Of a stretch of 64,000 nt of DNA, positions 11,329 to 17,145 are shown piece after piece. Made by a program: the position numbers and the translations under genes. The notes below the pieces were generated by a model. The model worked only from the letters and a program-made list of their open reading frames with translations. It had not been told where the DNA came from and searched no databases. Origin of the DNA: Candidatus Methylomirabilis lanthanidiphila (GTDB lineage Bacteria > Methylomirabilota > Methylomirabilia > Methylomirabilales > Methylomirabilaceae); assembly GCA_902196205.1 (NCBI GenBank), contig CABIKM010000048.1, positions 1 to 64,000 of the forward strand, read 5' to 3'. How positions within the stretch are numbered: position 1 is the first letter of the stretch; each line of letters begins with the position of its first letter.

Positions 11329-11619
11329 ATGGGATTGTTGGATAGCGGTCTGAAGGGAAACGTGGTGACAGGGCTGGCCATCGGTATCGGCGCGTCTATA
11401 TTGGCCCCCCTTGTCATTCCGGTGGCTGCGGCCATCGTCAAACCCCTGCTGAAGGCCACGATAAAGGGCGGCATCATGCTCTACGAAAAGGGGCAGGAGG
11501 TGGTGGCTGAGGCCGGCGAGGTGATCGAAGACCTGGCAGCCGAGGCGAAAGCGGAATTGGCGCAGACTCCAACCGAGACCGGATCGGTGGTCTCGGACAC
11601 GACTCGATCTGAAGCATAA
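11329..11619 (+). CDS. DUF5132-like small membrane protein
   Basis: 96 residues. A long hydrophobic stretch (about 10-48, glycine/alanine/isoleucine-rich, with two prolines in LAPLVIPVAAAIVKPLL) probably forms a hairpin in the membrane. It is followed by an acidic amphipathic helix. This fits the DUF5132 family, whose function is unknown. GAAAGGAGG precedes the ATG. It is the first gene of a run 11329-17145 with an HMA-like protein, a 22-residue-repeat protein, a P-type ATPase and a MetK relative. Confidence 0.65.
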   Translation: MGLLDSGLKGNVVTGLAIGIGASILAPLVIPVAAAIVKPLLKATIKGGIMLYEKGQEVVAEAGEVIEDLAAEAKAELAQTPTETGSVVSDTTRSEA

Positions 11620-11632
11620 CGGCAGGTGCCTG

Positions 11633-12109
11633 ATGCTTCCGAATGCGTTCATTACTCATGCGACTCATGGAAGGGTCAGAATCAAAATCCCTGCGAAGAA
11701 GGGCGATGCGGCCTATTTTGCTTCGCTGAGAGACAAGCTGGCAGCGTTGTCCGAACTGCCGGGCATTCAGCGGATTGAGGCGAACCCCCTGACAGGGAGT
11801 ATCCTCGTCCTCCATACCCTGGACCCGGAGGCCATTGACCTTGGGCTGGTCGCTCAATACAGCGAATTCAACCAACTGTTCCGCCTGCAACAACCCCCCG
11901 CCAAACAAACGCCGGCGCCTGGCAACAAGGCGAGCGGCCGCACAGCCGGCGAAATTGATCCTAAGGTGCTGGCCATGCTGGGATTCGTTGGCGTGGCTGT
12001 TATTCAACTGAAGAGGGGCCATATCATGATGCCTGCCATAACAGCACTGTGGTATGCCTACAGCCTTATGAAAGAACGGCAACGTGAAGCAGCAGGCGGT
12101 GGTGAATAA
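11633..12109 (+). CDS. HMA2-like protein without metal-binding CxxC
   Basis: 158 residues. The N-terminal 80 residues (HATHGRVRIKIP ... PGIQRIEANPLTGSILVLH) have the beta-alpha-beta ferredoxin-like pattern of heavy-metal-associated domains. The place of the CxxC metal loop is taken by HGRVRI. The same GR-hydrophobic-R signature recurs in the ATPase N-terminus (KGRIRLRV) and at 21672 (PGRLRVRT). A C-terminal hydrophobic segment (about 118-150) may anchor it to the membrane. Function unknown. Confidence 0.7.
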   Translation: MLPNAFITHATHGRVRIKIPAKKGDAAYFASLRDKLAALSELPGIQRIEANPLTGSILVLHTLDPEAIDLGLVAQYSEFNQLFRLQQPPAKQTPAPGNKASGRTAGEIDPKVLAMLGFVGVAVIQLKRGHIMMPAITALWYAYSLMKERQREAAGGGE

Positions 12110-12136
12110 CAAGAGTAAAAGTAAAGGAGATTCACA

Positions 12137-12838
12137 ATGGTAAGCGAGGAGAGTGAAAAAGAGGGACAGGGCACATCTCCAACGATCGGAAAGGCTGGCA
12201 CGACCGTGAAGGAGGGGATCGTTCAGAGCCTGAAGGGGATCAATGAGATCGAGGCTGAGATTGTCAGTCTTGTGCGAAATACGGTGTCTCACACCCTCAG
12301 AGCAACGGGCGGAGTCACCGGTGAAGCCATCAGCCTCACACGGGATGTGGTGAAAGGCGCCATCCAGGCCACAGAGGAGGTCGGCACCGGTCTGGTCATG
12401 AGCACCAAGAGTGTCGCCAAAGGGGTCATTATGGGGGTCGGCGATGTCGGAGGCGACGCAATGAGTGTTGCCGGTCAGACCGTGAAGGCGGCCGTCTCCG
12501 GAGCGTCCGAGATCGGGGCGGACATCGCGCTGGTGGCGAGAAGTGCTGTCGATGGCGTCGCTGAGGCCATCAAAGAAACAGGCGGCAACGCAGAAAAAGC
12601 CGTCGGAGTAGCCGTGACCGGGGCTATCGAAGCGGCAGGCAGCATCGGACAGACCGCCGTCAGGGCCGTACGAGATATTCTGCTTGGTGTCGTGGAGGGC
12701 GTGAAGGACGTCGCGGGCGCCGCGCTCCCAAGATCAGGCGCGAGCGCTCCGGCTCCACCATCACCGGCCAGTTCCCCGGAACCCGCCGAGCCCGTGGAAT
12801 CAACAACCATCCCCAAAGGCCGCACGAAAAGTAAGTAA
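12137..12838 (+). CDS. Protein of tandem 22-residue amphipathic repeats
   Basis: Of 233 residues, 31 to about 201 consist of seven complete and one partial unit of exactly 22 residues, without gaps. Units start at 31, 53, 75, 97, 119, 141, 163 and 185. Position 8 is I/V/T, position 7 mostly E or D, position 12 mostly A/I/L, position 20 hydrophobic (usually V), and position 22 usually G. A 22-residue period (two 11-mers) is characteristic of lipid-surface helices such as apolipoproteins; a similar role here is inference. The tail is proline/serine-rich and ends in a basic KGRTKSK. No signal peptide or cysteine is seen. GTAAAGGAG precedes the start. Confidence 0.8.
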   Translation: MVSEESEKEGQGTSPTIGKAGTTVKEGIVQSLKGINEIEAEIVSLVRNTVSHTLRATGGVTGEAISLTRDVVKGAIQATEEVGTGLVMSTKSVAKGVIMGVGDVGGDAMSVAGQTVKAAVSGASEIGADIALVARSAVDGVAEAIKETGGNAEKAVGVAVTGAIEAAGSIGQTAVRAVRDILLGVVEGVKDVAGAALPRSGASAPAPPSPASSPEPAEPVESTTIPKGRTKSK

Positions 12839-12853
12839 TACTCACGTCATTAA

Positions 12854-12904
12854 AAGCCATCCTGATTGATACCTGCCCCTGCCCTCAATCAGGATGGCTT
12901 CTTT
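12854..12904 (+). terminator. Intrinsic terminator/attenuator at the ATPase start
   Basis: AAGCCATCCTGATTGA (12854-12869) pairs perfectly over 16 bp with TCAATCAGGATGGCTT (12885-12900). AA precedes the stem and CTTT follows. The 3' arm contains the ATG at 12894 that would otherwise be the first start codon of the ATPase. Confidence 0.75.
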
Positions 12905-12917
12905 CAGAGGTCTGCTC

Positions 12918-15900
12918 GTGGTTCAGGCTGTACACAATCTGGTGAAGGGGAGGATCAGGCTCAGGGTCAGCGGACTCTATCGCTCACGGATGCTCAAAGG
13001 CTTCCTCGAATCCCGTCTCCATCAGGTCAAAGGTATCAGCGGCGCCTCGGCAAATGTCCTGACCGGGAATCTCCTCATCGTGTTCAATTCGCACCATACC
13101 ACCCAGACGGTCACCATCCTGATCGAGGGGATCGTGTCGGACTATAGGCGCCTGCCGTCTAACGGACATGTGTCGCCTTCTACCGTAACGACCGCCGCCG
13201 CCTCTCCCCTCGAACAACCAGCCGTCCACCCATGGCATGCCCTCCGAACCGATTCGGTTCTCACGATGCTGGCGACAACCGGGGCGGGACTGCCGGAACA
13301 CACGGCACGCGAACGCCTTATGCAATATGGTCCGAATGTCTTGCCTGAGGCGCTCCGTCGATCACGATTCGGTATCCTGATCGATCAGTTTGCCTCGCTT
13401 CCCGTTGCCCTCCTTGCCGCAGCGGCCGCGCTCTCTTTTATGACCGGCGGGATTGCCGATGCGCTGGTCATCCTTGGAGTCGTCTGTATCAACGCCACCA
13501 TCGGGTATGTCACCGAATCTCAAACGGAGGACACGCTCCATTCCCTCAAGAAACTGGTGACCCCGTCTGCGGCAGTCGTTCGAAACGGCGCCCTCCTGAC
13601 GATTCGTGCAGAAGAGGTGGTCGTCGGAGATCTTTTGGCGCTGAGACCCGGAAGCTACATTGCTGCCGATGCCAGGATCGTGGAGAGCCGGCATCTGTAT
13701 GTGGATGAGTCGGCGCTCACCGGCGAGAATATGCCTGCGTTCAAGACTGCAGACTCGACCCTCGCGGCCGCCGTTCCGCTGGCCGATCGGATCAACATGG
13801 TCTATATGGGGACTCTGGTGACGGGAGGCGAGGGCCTGGCCGTGGTCGTCGCGACCGGGGGCGTGACAGAGATGGGACAGATTCAGGTCCTGACCGGCGA
13901 GGCGTTGCCGCCCGAGACCCCCATGGAAAGGCGGCTCAGACAGATCGGAAACCATTCGGTGTGGCTCGGGGGTCTGGCCTGTGGGCTGGTCTTTGTCATC
14001 GGCCTGCTCCGCGGATACGGCTTTGTCCGGATGTTCAAGATCGCCATCTCGCTGGCAGTGGCGGCCGTCCCCGAAGGTCTGTCCACCGTGGCCACAACGA
14101 CGCTGGCGTTGGGAATCAGGAGCATGAGACGCCATCATGTCCTGATCCGCTATCTTCATGCCGTGGAGACGCTGGGATCGGTTCAGACGATCTGTCTCGA
14201 CAAGACCGGAACCATCACCATGAACCGGATGTCGGTGGTGGCCATTCACACAAGCCTGCAACCCATCACGATCGCAGAGGGCAGGTTCGTCTCAGGAGGG
14301 GTCCCGATCGACCCGTTCATCTGCGACGAACTCCTGAGATTGATCCATGCCTCGGTATTGTGCAACGAAACCGTCGTGAGTCATCTCGAGGAGGAATGCG
14401 TGCTGACAGGCTCGCCGACCGAAAACGCCCTGGTCCATCTGGCCGTCAGCGCGGGGATCGATGTCCTGAAGATCCGGGAGCGGTATCCCCTGCTCAGGAT
14501 GACTCAGCGCTCCGAAAATCGGAATTACATGACGACCCTGCACCGGTCGGATCCCTCATCACGACTGTTGGCGGTCAAGGGCAGTCCTCGAGAGGTGTTG
14601 GACATGTGCCGGTGGTACCTGAAAGACGGTCAACAGGTTCCCCTCTCCGAAGAGATACGAGCCACGATTGAGATCGAGAATGAACGCATGGCCGGTGATT
14701 CGCTCAGGGTCCTGGGCATCGCCTATGCCTACCAGGATCATACCGGGGAGGATGGGGTACATGCCGAACGCGGGCTGATCTGGCTTGGGTTGGTCGGCAT
14801 GGCTGATCCGATCAGGAGCGGGGTCAAGGAGCTGATCCCCCGGTTTCACCAGGCGGGAATCGATACCGTCATGATTACCGGAGACCAGAGTCCTACGGCC
14901 TACGCCATCGGCAAGTCGTTGAATCTTGGCGGAAACGGGTCGCTTGAAATCCTGGACTCGACCCACCTGGCGACCGTGGATCCCCAGGTCATGGAGGCGC
15001 TCTCGAAGAAGGTCCACGTCTTCTCGAGGGTCAGCCCCGCCAATAAGCTGCAGATCGTCCAGGCGCTTCAGCGAGCCGGCAGGGTCGTGGCCATGACCGG
15101 TGACGGCATCAACGATGGACCGGCCCTGAAAGCCGCCGATATCGGGATCGCCATGGGCCACGCCGGCACGGATGTGGCGCGGGAGGTGGCGGATGTGGTG
15201 CTGGAAAACGACGATCTTGAAACGATGATCGTCGCGATCAGTCACGGCAGAACGACCTACAACAATATCAGAAAGGCGGTCCATTTCCTGCTGGCCACCA
15301 ACCTCAGCGAGATGCTCGTTATGTCGGCCTCTATGACGGCGGGACTGGGTGAGCCGCTCAACCCCATGCAGCTTTTGTGGATTAACCTGATTTCCGATAT
15401 CTTCCCGGGACTGGCGCTTGCGCTTGAGCCGCCCGAGCCTGATGTGTTGAGTCGCCCGCCCCGCAATCCGCACGAACCGATTCTGAACACTGCCGACCTG
15501 AAGAGGATTGCGTACGAGGCCGGCGTGATCTCTGCAGGTTCGATGGGGGCCTATACCTATGGCATCCTGAGATACGGCATGGGGCCACAGGCCGGCACGA
15601 TGGCCTTTCTGACCCTGGTCCTGGGACAGCTCATGCACGCCCTCAGTTGCCGCTCAGAACGACACACGATCTATGATTCGTTGGCTGCCGGGACTCCGCT
15701 CCCTCCCAACCGATACCTGCAGCTTGCACTTGGCGGATCGTTTGCCGTTCAGGCTGCCACCCTGGCTTCTCCAGGACTCCGCAGCCTCCTGGGCATTGCG
15801 CCTCTCGGGGTAGCAGACGCGCTTGTGGTGGGAGGAGGCGCGTTGTTTCCATTCCTGGTCAACGAGGCCACGAAACATCGTATACATTCAACGACGAACA

Positions 15901-15956
15901 ACCACACCACACTGCGCCCGACACCGGCCATACGAGGTGACGTACATGAAGGCTGA
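12918..15956 (+). CDS. P2-type cation-transporting ATPase with HMA-like N-terminal domain
   Basis: About 1012 residues. An HMA2-like domain without CxxC (KGRIRLRV) occupies the first 85 residues, then the ATPase core. It has DESALTGEN in the actuator domain, AAVPEGLST in helix 4 (the PEGL motif of P2 calcium/sodium-type pumps, not the CPx of heavy-metal pumps), the phosphorylation site DKTGTITMN (near residue 428), and GDGINDGPAL. The C-terminal helices include LLWINLISDIFPGLALAL, again P2-like. Ion specificity is not readable. I prefer GTG 12918 (CAGAGG seven bases upstream) because ATG 12894 lies inside the terminator stem. The end overlaps the metK-like gene by 11 bp. Confidence 0.85.
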   Translation: MVQAVHNLVKGRIRLRVSGLYRSRMLKGFLESRLHQVKGISGASANVLTGNLLIVFNSHHTTQTVTILIEGIVSDYRRLPSNGHVSPSTVTTAAASPLEQPAVHPWHALRTDSVLTMLATTGAGLPEHTARERLMQYGPNVLPEALRRSRFGILIDQFASLPVALLAAAAALSFMTGGIADALVILGVVCINATIGYVTESQTEDTLHSLKKLVTPSAAVVRNGALLTIRAEEVVVGDLLALRPGSYIAADARIVESRHLYVDESALTGENMPAFKTADSTLAAAVPLADRINMVYMGTLVTGGEGLAVVVATGGVTEMGQIQVLTGEALPPETPMERRLRQIGNHSVWLGGLACGLVFVIGLLRGYGFVRMFKIAISLAVAAVPEGLSTVATTTLALGIRSMRRHHVLIRYLHAVETLGSVQTICLDKTGTITMNRMSVVAIHTSLQPITIAEGRFVSGGVPIDPFICDELLRLIHASVLCNETVVSHLEEECVLTGSPTENALVHLAVSAGIDVLKIRERYPLLRMTQRSENRNYMTTLHRSDPSSRLLAVKGSPREVLDMCRWYLKDGQQVPLSEEIRATIEIENERMAGDSLRVLGIAYAYQDHTGEDGVHAERGLIWLGLVGMADPIRSGVKELIPRFHQAGIDTVMITGDQSPTAYAIGKSLNLGGNGSLEILDSTHLATVDPQVMEALSKKVHVFSRVSPANKLQIVQALQRAGRVVAMTGDGINDGPALKAADIGIAMGHAGTDVAREVADVVLENDDLETMIVAISHGRTTYNNIRKAVHFLLATNLSEMLVMSASMTAGLGEPLNPMQLLWINLISDIFPGLALALEPPEPDVLSRPPRNPHEPILNTADLKRIAYEAGVISAGSMGAYTYGILRYGMGPQAGTMAFLTLVLGQLMHALSCRSERHTIYDSLAAGTPLPPNRYLQLALGGSFAVQAATLASPGLRSLLGIAPLGVADALVVGGGALFPFLVNEATKHRIHSTTNNHTTLRPTPAIRGDVHEG

Positions 15957-17145
15957 CTTTATGTTTACCTCCGAATCGGTAACAGAGGGGCACCCTGACA
16001 AACTGTGCGATCAGATCAGCGATGCGGTCGTCGATCATATCCTGCAGCGCGACCCATGTTCGCGGGTCATCGCCGAATGCGCGGTCTCAACCGCCATCGT
16101 GTTTATTGCGGCCAGGTTTTCCACCAATGCCTCCATCGACTTCGCCAACATCGCCAGGCAGGTGATCAATCAGGTCGGGTATGTGGAACACTCCTTTACG
16201 GCCAAGACCTGCAGTATCCTGACAAGTCTCAAAGAGTTGCCTGTTGAGGAGTCCGACGTTTTCGATGAACGGTGTCTGTCCGACGAAGAGATAGAACGGA
16301 TCCCGGTGAGAAATCAGGTGACAGTATTCGGGTATGCATGCGATCAGACCCCTGCCCTCATGCCGCTTCCCATCTGGCTGGCCCATCGGCTTGCCAGGAG
16401 GCTGACCTCCGTAAGGCTCCAAAAGCTCCTTCCCTACCTGTCTCCTGACGGCAAGACGCAGGTCGGCGTCGAGTACAGAGATCGGAGGCCCTACAGGATT
16501 CATAGCATCACGCTCATTGCCGGCCAGAGCAGACCCTCAACATCCGGCGGTCCCGATCTGAAAAGACTGGAACAGGATCTCAGAGAGATGGTTATTCATC
16601 CGATCCTCCAGGACGAGAAGATTACAACGGATGACAGGACCAGAATATTTGTCAATCCGGATGGTCCATTTATTGTCGGTGGGCCCTCTGTCCATTCCGG
16701 ACTGACAGGCAGAAAGAATGCCATCGACACCTATGGGGAGTATTCACGACACAGTGGGGCGGCTCTCAGCGGAAAGGATCCCATGCGGATCGACCGCGTC
16801 GGCGCCTACATCGCCCGCTATGCGGCCAAGAACGTGGTGGCTGCAGGGCTGGCGCGGGAATGCGAAGTCCAATTGAGCTACTCTATCGGCCTGTCACGAC
16901 CTGTCAGCGTGCAGGTCGAAACATTCGGCACAGGCACGCTGCCGGATGCCCGGATCGCCCAGCTCCTCGAGAGCCATGTCGATTTTCGGATCGCGGGGAT
17001 CATGAAGCAGTTCAACCTGCGTTATCTGCCCTCCCTGATTAAAGGCGGGTTTTATAAGAGGCTGGCTGTCTACGGACATGTGGGGCGGATGGACATCGGG
17101 CTTCCCTGGGAGGTCACCGACAAGATCGGTGCCCTGAAGGACTGA
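15946..17145 (+). CDS. Divergent S-adenosylmethionine synthetase-like protein
   Basis: 399 residues clearly of the MetK fold. TEGHPDKLCDQISDAV (14-28), GLTGRK (252-257) and SGKDP (275-279) are kept. Several conserved elements are altered: GDQG before FGYA is RNQV (122-125), the glycine-rich GGPxGDxGLTGRK reads GGPSVHSGLTGRK, HGGGAFSGKD reads HSGAALSGKD, and the segment usually reading GGEIT reads AARFS (about 55-59). It may be a reduced-activity or altered-substrate enzyme. ATG 15946 has CGAGGTG upstream and overlaps the ATPase stop, so the two are translationally linked. A normal metK is presumably elsewhere. Confidence 0.8.
   Translation: MKADFMFTSESVTEGHPDKLCDQISDAVVDHILQRDPCSRVIAECAVSTAIVFIAARFSTNASIDFANIARQVINQVGYVEHSFTAKTCSILTSLKELPVEESDVFDERCLSDEEIERIPVRNQVTVFGYACDQTPALMPLPIWLAHRLARRLTSVRLQKLLPYLSPDGKTQVGVEYRDRRPYRIHSITLIAGQSRPSTSGGPDLKRLEQDLREMVIHPILQDEKITTDDRTRIFVNPDGPFIVGGPSVHSGLTGRKNAIDTYGEYSRHSGAALSGKDPMRIDRVGAYIARYAAKNVVAAGLARECEVQLSYSIGLSRPVSVQVETFGTGTLPDARIAQLLESHVDFRIAGIMKQFNLRYLPSLIKGGFYKRLAVYGHVGRMDIGLPWEVTDKIGALKD

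Follow-up and report, generated by a model that had tools for sequence, protein, structure and literature searches.

A gapless 22-residue repeat protein in an ion-pump gene cassette: a predicted helix stack and possible scaffold

Does an exact 22-residue periodicity in a bacterial protein mark a helix lying on a lipid surface, or could it mark a different fold? The question is raised by a gene at 12137..12838 (+) of the window, i.e. the whole stretch of 64,000 nucleotides from Candidatus Methylomirabilis lanthanidiphila that we analyzed. The gene encodes a 233 aa protein, REP; an earlier note had described it as a row of apolipoprotein-like units, a kind of protein rare in bacteria and situated in an unusual operon.

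A strictly conserved 22-residue repeat

The repeat core of REP occupies residues 23-198 (12203..12730, +), running from TVKEGI to AALP; its 176 residues make exactly eight units of 22 without gaps. A disordered C-terminal tail follows (12731..12835, +), Pro/Ser/Ala-rich with a basic end (GRTKSK), poorly conserved and modeled by AlphaFold2 (AF2) with low confidence. The BLOSUM62 self-match of residues 21-205 gave z=7.7 at lag 22, z=8.2 at lag 44 and z=4.8 at lag 11; the hydrophobicity autocorrelation of the same residues at lag 22 was 0.55. The earlier note was thus correct about a gapless repeat without insertions. The unit starts that it gave (residues 31, 53 ... 185) have the same period in another phase, but its last unit, 185-206, conforms to the repeat only as far as Pro198; with the natural limits at 23-198, those coordinates and that phase were nearly right.

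A Fourier scan showed a hydrophobic stripe in REP with the peak at 98.0 degrees and a moment of 0.31, 300 shuffles reaching 0.22 at most; in all homologues tested the peak was at 98.0-98.5 degrees. The amphipathic face at the 11/3 helical pitch, expected in the earlier note, is therefore present.

In comparison with three orthologues in the same genus REP had dN/dS of 0.09-0.10, indicating a protein under selection; this ratio, along with zero gaps in the 176-column core of 44 aligned homologues, shows that the gene is real. Chance or low-complexity origin of the repeat was ruled out by the self-match, the moment, dN/dS and the gapless alignment. REP belongs to a genuine, strongly conserved family that has no name: neither Pfam nor NCBIfam has an entry for it, and it matches none of the named solenoid families (TPR, HEAT, ARM, PPR etc.). 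On the opposite strand, an open frame of 272 codons (window 11474-12292, -) lies antisense to genes of the cassette described below; it is probably fortuitous.

About 60 homologues were found in several phyla, and all the unit numbers seen (8, 9, 12 or 14) keep the 22-residue register, whose loss would have told against the earlier reading. When 72 distinct matching frames were phase-decoded, nearly all full-length ones had a single unbroken register. Most forms have ∼8 units, while there are 9 in Chloroflexi, 12 in locus L095 and 14 in L068-L071; the number varies by whole units only, the 9-unit form differing from the 8-unit form by one exact insertion of 22 residues.

Relatives of REP occur in Nitrospirae, Planctomycetota, Desulfobacterales, Syntrophaceae, Rhodospirillales, Thermodesulfatator, Rokuibacteriota and Chloroflexi, with more coming from genome searches. 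The gene is present in 4 of 15 genomes of the window's genus (which includes Candidatus Methylomirabilis contig NSJM01000018). Matches were found in 17 of 95 genomes of the window's own phylum (E ≤ 1e-6) and, at E ≤ 1e-15, in 27 of 246, 13 of 198, 6 of 201 and 1 of 249 genomes of the phyla of loci L011, L014, L023 and L017, respectively. What had been called rare in bacteria is better described as patchy, with matches in part of the genomes of five phyla. Carriage by phages or plasmids was rejected, as neither collection gave a tblastn match of REP.

Some loci are irregular. In L072 (8063-8992) the first 3.4 units are followed by unrelated sequence, possibly due to recombination or misassembly; L037/L045 and L038/L046 carry, directly beside the gene of the first repeat protein, a gene of another, shorter one (∼4 units), which in L045 is on the opposite strand.

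Long amphipathic helix or stack of short helices

An amphipathic face and a conserved register are compatible with a lipid-surface helix and with a helix stack alike. The nonpolar or uncharged face of REP takes 6 of the 11 wheel positions (∼197 degrees) along the entire core, and the 98-degree stripe is coherent through all 176 residues, as would also be the case in a single long helix. The core is Ala/Val/Thr/Gly-rich, with 15% glycine and no aromatics. Synuclein and perilipin form 11/3 amphipathic helices of similar Ala/Val/Thr/Gly-rich, aromatic-free composition; the neighbors of REP are membrane proteins as well. All these features would suit a lipid-surface protein of the type of exchangeable apolipoproteins, alpha-synuclein and perilipins, that is, one long amphipathic helix, which would be disordered in solution and would lie around the pump encoded next to REP on the inner membrane, or else a helix stack opening on lipid. 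We consider such a protein unlikely for reasons that come from the anatomy of the unit, from its conservation and from modeling.

Position statistics were computed from the homologue alignment for units 2-7. A hydrophobic residue occupies unit position 10 in 100% and position 16 in 97% of cases; position 17 is Gly in 80% and position 19 is Ser, Thr, Asp or Asn (N-cap type) in 64%. Position 8 is Gly in 75% and position 12 Ala or Gly in 89%, a spacing that looks like a GxxxA/G packing motif; position 3 is Lys or Arg in 72% and position 15 is acidic in 69%. The pattern at positions 16-19, hydrophobic-Gly-x-(D/N/S/T), is the classical combination of helix stop and helix start, and its conservation resembles a helix C-cap followed by the next N-cap.

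In the 14-unit homologues lags 44, 88 and 132 had z of 11-18 versus 7-11 at lags 22, 66 and 110; lag 11 was nearly lost in these forms (z 0.6-2.4) and was negative in L019. Two-helix units should give such a 44-residue super-repeat with vanishing lag 11, whereas a uniform lipid helix of 11/22 residues should not; read from sequence, this super-repeat is evidence on the fold independent of AF2.

AF2 predicted eight helices from 16 sequences (pLDDT 72.5, pTM 0.66); with 44 sequences the best model had pLDDT 77 and pTM 0.72, all five models being at 73-77. The helices in the latter run are 16-31, 38-57, 62-82, 86-103, 108-126, 130-148, 152-170 and 172-196; the same separate helices, 16-25 residues in length and joined by short turns, were obtained with both alignments. 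These values should be read with the caveat that AF2 may idealize repetitive sequences into solenoids and that an alignment of 44 is shallow; units 1-2, with atypical turns and lower AF2 confidence, are less certain. Designed helical repeats were the sole good PDB fold matches of the model (E 3e-4 to 8e-3, TM (query) 0.50-0.67), with no natural solenoid among the best. Tandem two-helix repeats of constant length, as in alpha-solenoids, are seen in REP as the 44-residue super-repeat and the predicted eight helices.

Charge placement also differs from that of apolipoproteins. Class A helices have Lys/Arg at both interfaces and acids in the center of the polar side, and apolipoprotein units start with Pro. 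On the REP wheel Lys/Arg are at 196 degrees on one edge and Asp/Glu at 295-327 degrees on the other; the only Pro among 176 core residues is at the end, and none is at a unit start. Thus, five lines (the AF2 model; Gly/N-cap turns with GxxxA/G; the 44-residue super-repeat; a mean identity of 67% in the cassette set; no class-A pattern) favor eight short helices with Gly-x-Asp turns over an apolipoprotein-like helix. Further points against a lipid-surface protein are units of 22/44 residues with Gly caps where an 11-residue unit would be expected, no half-unit (11-residue) length change among ∼60 homologues, gapless alignment at 67-69% identity, while lipid-surface helices usually conserve composition only, and a net charge of ∼-5, unfavorable on anionic membranes. 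The apolipoprotein profile of Pfam had no match up to E=1 with REP, 15 relatives and remote forms. Of the apolipoprotein-like reading, the 22-residue amphipathic unit stands; the analogy as such is probably wrong. A role on lipid and a role as scaffold are compatible, since the stack of helices could open when on lipid.

The 11/3 hydrophobic pitch in all homologues, together with z of 4-6 at lag 11 in several of the 8-unit forms, could also suggest a continuous hendecad helix making a straight coiled-coil oligomer or filament beside the pump; many small residues and zero aromatics would make tight packing possible. We find this quite improbable, as the hydrophobic face is wider than a simple coiled coil would allow, Gly and N-cap residues occupy the turn positions in units 3 to 6, and the lag-11 signal fades in the long forms as described above.

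Composition of REP might equally point to a stress-type or intrinsically disordered protein, LEA-like or phasin-like, with no dedicated link to a pump; single members do have sub-threshold Pfam scores (Phasin_2, E 0.011; Senescence, E 0.034; L1R_F9L, E 6.6e-5). None of the scores reaches its curated cut-off, and strong sequence constraint and co-inheritance with the cassette leave this alternative with very little probability. Membership of REP in the apolipoprotein, LEA or phasin families was rejected for want of a curated Pfam match; a Senescence/spartin link was rejected too (14.5 bits versus the cut-off of 24.6), and a PDB match of REP to alpha-synuclein (E 1.5) was at chance level.

The ion-pump cassette

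The operon was rightly called unusual; moreover, its gene cassette is conserved across loci. REP is preceded by genes of a DUF5132 protein (11329..11619, +; 96 aa; Pfam PF17195, E=1.1e-14), present in nearly all cassette loci, and of an HMA_2 protein (11633..12109, +; 158 aa; PF19991, E=1.4e-12). It is followed by a gene of a 1020 aa P2A-type ATPase with an N-terminal HMA_2 domain (12894..15956, +), the end of which is overlapped by a gene of a second SAM synthetase paralogue (15940..17145, +). The order DUF5132-HMA_2-REP-ATPase recurs in most loci with enough flanking sequence. The SAM synthetase shares 47% identity with the genome's other copy; near-identical copies of it were found only in cassette genomes, from several phyla, plus a fragment in genome G001.

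By hydropathy, the DUF5132 protein has a Gly-rich hydrophobic segment (residues 12-30) and a Glu/Ala-rich tail; in the HMA_2 protein a hydrophobic segment is situated at the C-terminus. Cysteine is absent from both proteins and CxxC is absent from the ATPase; hence there is no classical CxxC metal binding. The nearest solved relatives of the ATPase are SPCA1 (Ca/Mn; E=4e-140) and Listeria LMCA1 (E=3e-139); this closeness and the VPEGL-type and WINxxxD motifs suggest that the pump ion is likely Ca2+ or Mn2+. The ATPase gene appears split in two frames in L014 (3027-6042) and L018 (5702-8224), possibly because of frameshifts or assembly errors.

Pairwise distances of REP correlated with those of the ATPase (r=0.70), HMA_2 (0.64) and DUF5132 (0.59) proteins, each value being reached in 0 of 999 permutations, although such correlations are also expected from shared descent of the cassette. 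Conservation, measured as mean identity, is highest in REP among the four cassette proteins compared: 0.67-0.69 versus 0.63 for DUF5132, 0.56 for the N-terminal part of the ATPase and 0.38 for HMA_2. Distant relatives of REP in the window's phylum (L036-L039, L044-L046) adjoin P2A ATPases as well, and the 14-unit forms (L068-L071) are near MscS-like, MgtE, CNNM, RimK-like or zinc-protease-like genes.

We favor, at a probability of roughly 45%, the reading that REP is an alpha-solenoid that serves a membrane ion-pump complex as its scaffold, similar to mycobacterial PacL (see below) but unrelated to it. Its eight antiparallel helices of ∼19 residues are predicted to stack as four two-helix (44-residue) units carrying the flexible basic tail; a three-residue Gly-x-Asp/Asn/Thr turn would follow most of the helices. 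Membrane anchors of the complex would be the HMA_2 protein and the DUF5132 protein, the latter having one hydrophobic segment and a Glu/Ala tail; between these anchors and the N-terminus of the SPCA1-like ATPase, which bears the ATPase's HMA_2 domain, the solenoid would form the bridge. We infer that REP may in this way cluster or stabilize a pump exporting Ca2+ or Mn2+.

Counting against a scaffold, its contact with the pump is a presumed one, its role is assigned by analogy, and some loci have no adjoining pump. Clade-2 forms (Rokubacteria/Rokuibacteriota, Chloroflexi) have none, one member of the pumpless Rokuibacteriota clade being next to a BrkB-family gene; L017 has DUF5132 and HMA_2 genes with no ATPase within the stretch examined; and in L061 and L075 the pump is not next door to REP.

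Comparison with known systems

Exchangeable apolipoproteins (apoA-I type 22-mers) share with REP the 22-residue amphipathic unit; REP differs in having no proline punctuation, in the 44-residue super-repeat and in Gly turns. Alpha-synuclein, perilipins and the spartin senescence domain are, like REP, Gly/Ala/Val/Thr-rich 11/3 amphipathic helices; however, they have no significant homology to REP, whose unit is 22/44 rather than 11 residues and is gapless across phyla. The solved folds closest to the AF2 model, DHR4 (5cwb), RPB_LRP2_R4 (7udk) and O43_dn18 (6vfi), are artificial and without homology to REP, whereas the REP family is natural and Gly/Ala/Val-rich. The cassette ATPase shares with the Ca2+-ATPases SPCA1 (ATP2C1) and LMCA1 the P2A core with VPEGL-type (M4) and WINxxxD (M6) motifs; it differs from them by the N-terminal HMA_2 domain without CxxC and by being a part of a cassette.

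In the paper library searched there was none on DUF5132, and nothing on 22-residue bacterial repeats or on a solenoid scaffold of P-type ATPases. One could speculate, though we regard this broader claim as doubtful, that REP stands for an undescribed natural alpha-solenoid family of exact 22-residue helix-turn units, closer to designed repeats than to solved natural folds, that organizes a patchy Ca2+/Mn2+-pump cassette with a dedicated SAM synthetase and that is PacL-like with independent origin outside Actinobacteria. If so, a natural repeat fold would be so regular that engineered proteins are its best match among solved structures, and it might be useful as a template in repeat-protein design; it would also be a clean case of a 22-residue periodicity, usually taken as lipid-binding, marking a helix stack.

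The closest functional parallel would be PacL of Mycobacterium tuberculosis, a small membrane protein that combines a TM helix with Glu/Ala repeats; its gene is located beside P-ATPases, and it clusters and stabilizes these pumps (PMC9374683, PMC13043812). PacL partners are P1B pumps, PacL1 also has a metal-binding motif, and PacL was reported in Actinobacteria only (PMC9374683, PMC13043812). As in the Mycobacterium effluxosomes of PacL1-3/DUF1490 with CtpC, CtpG and CtpV, accessory proteins of our cassette are encoded in an operon with a P-type ATPase, REP itself being next to the pump gene; the DUF5132 protein is PacL-like in its hydrophobic segment and Glu/Ala tail. The DUF1490 domain had no Pfam match in REP, DUF5132 or HMA_2 proteins, and the cassette differs from PacL systems by the 176-residue repeat core, the P2A pump and the phyla where it is found. 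Should the scaffold reading be true, PacL-type scaffolding platforms for pumps would turn out to be a recurring theme rather than something peculiar to mycobacteria.
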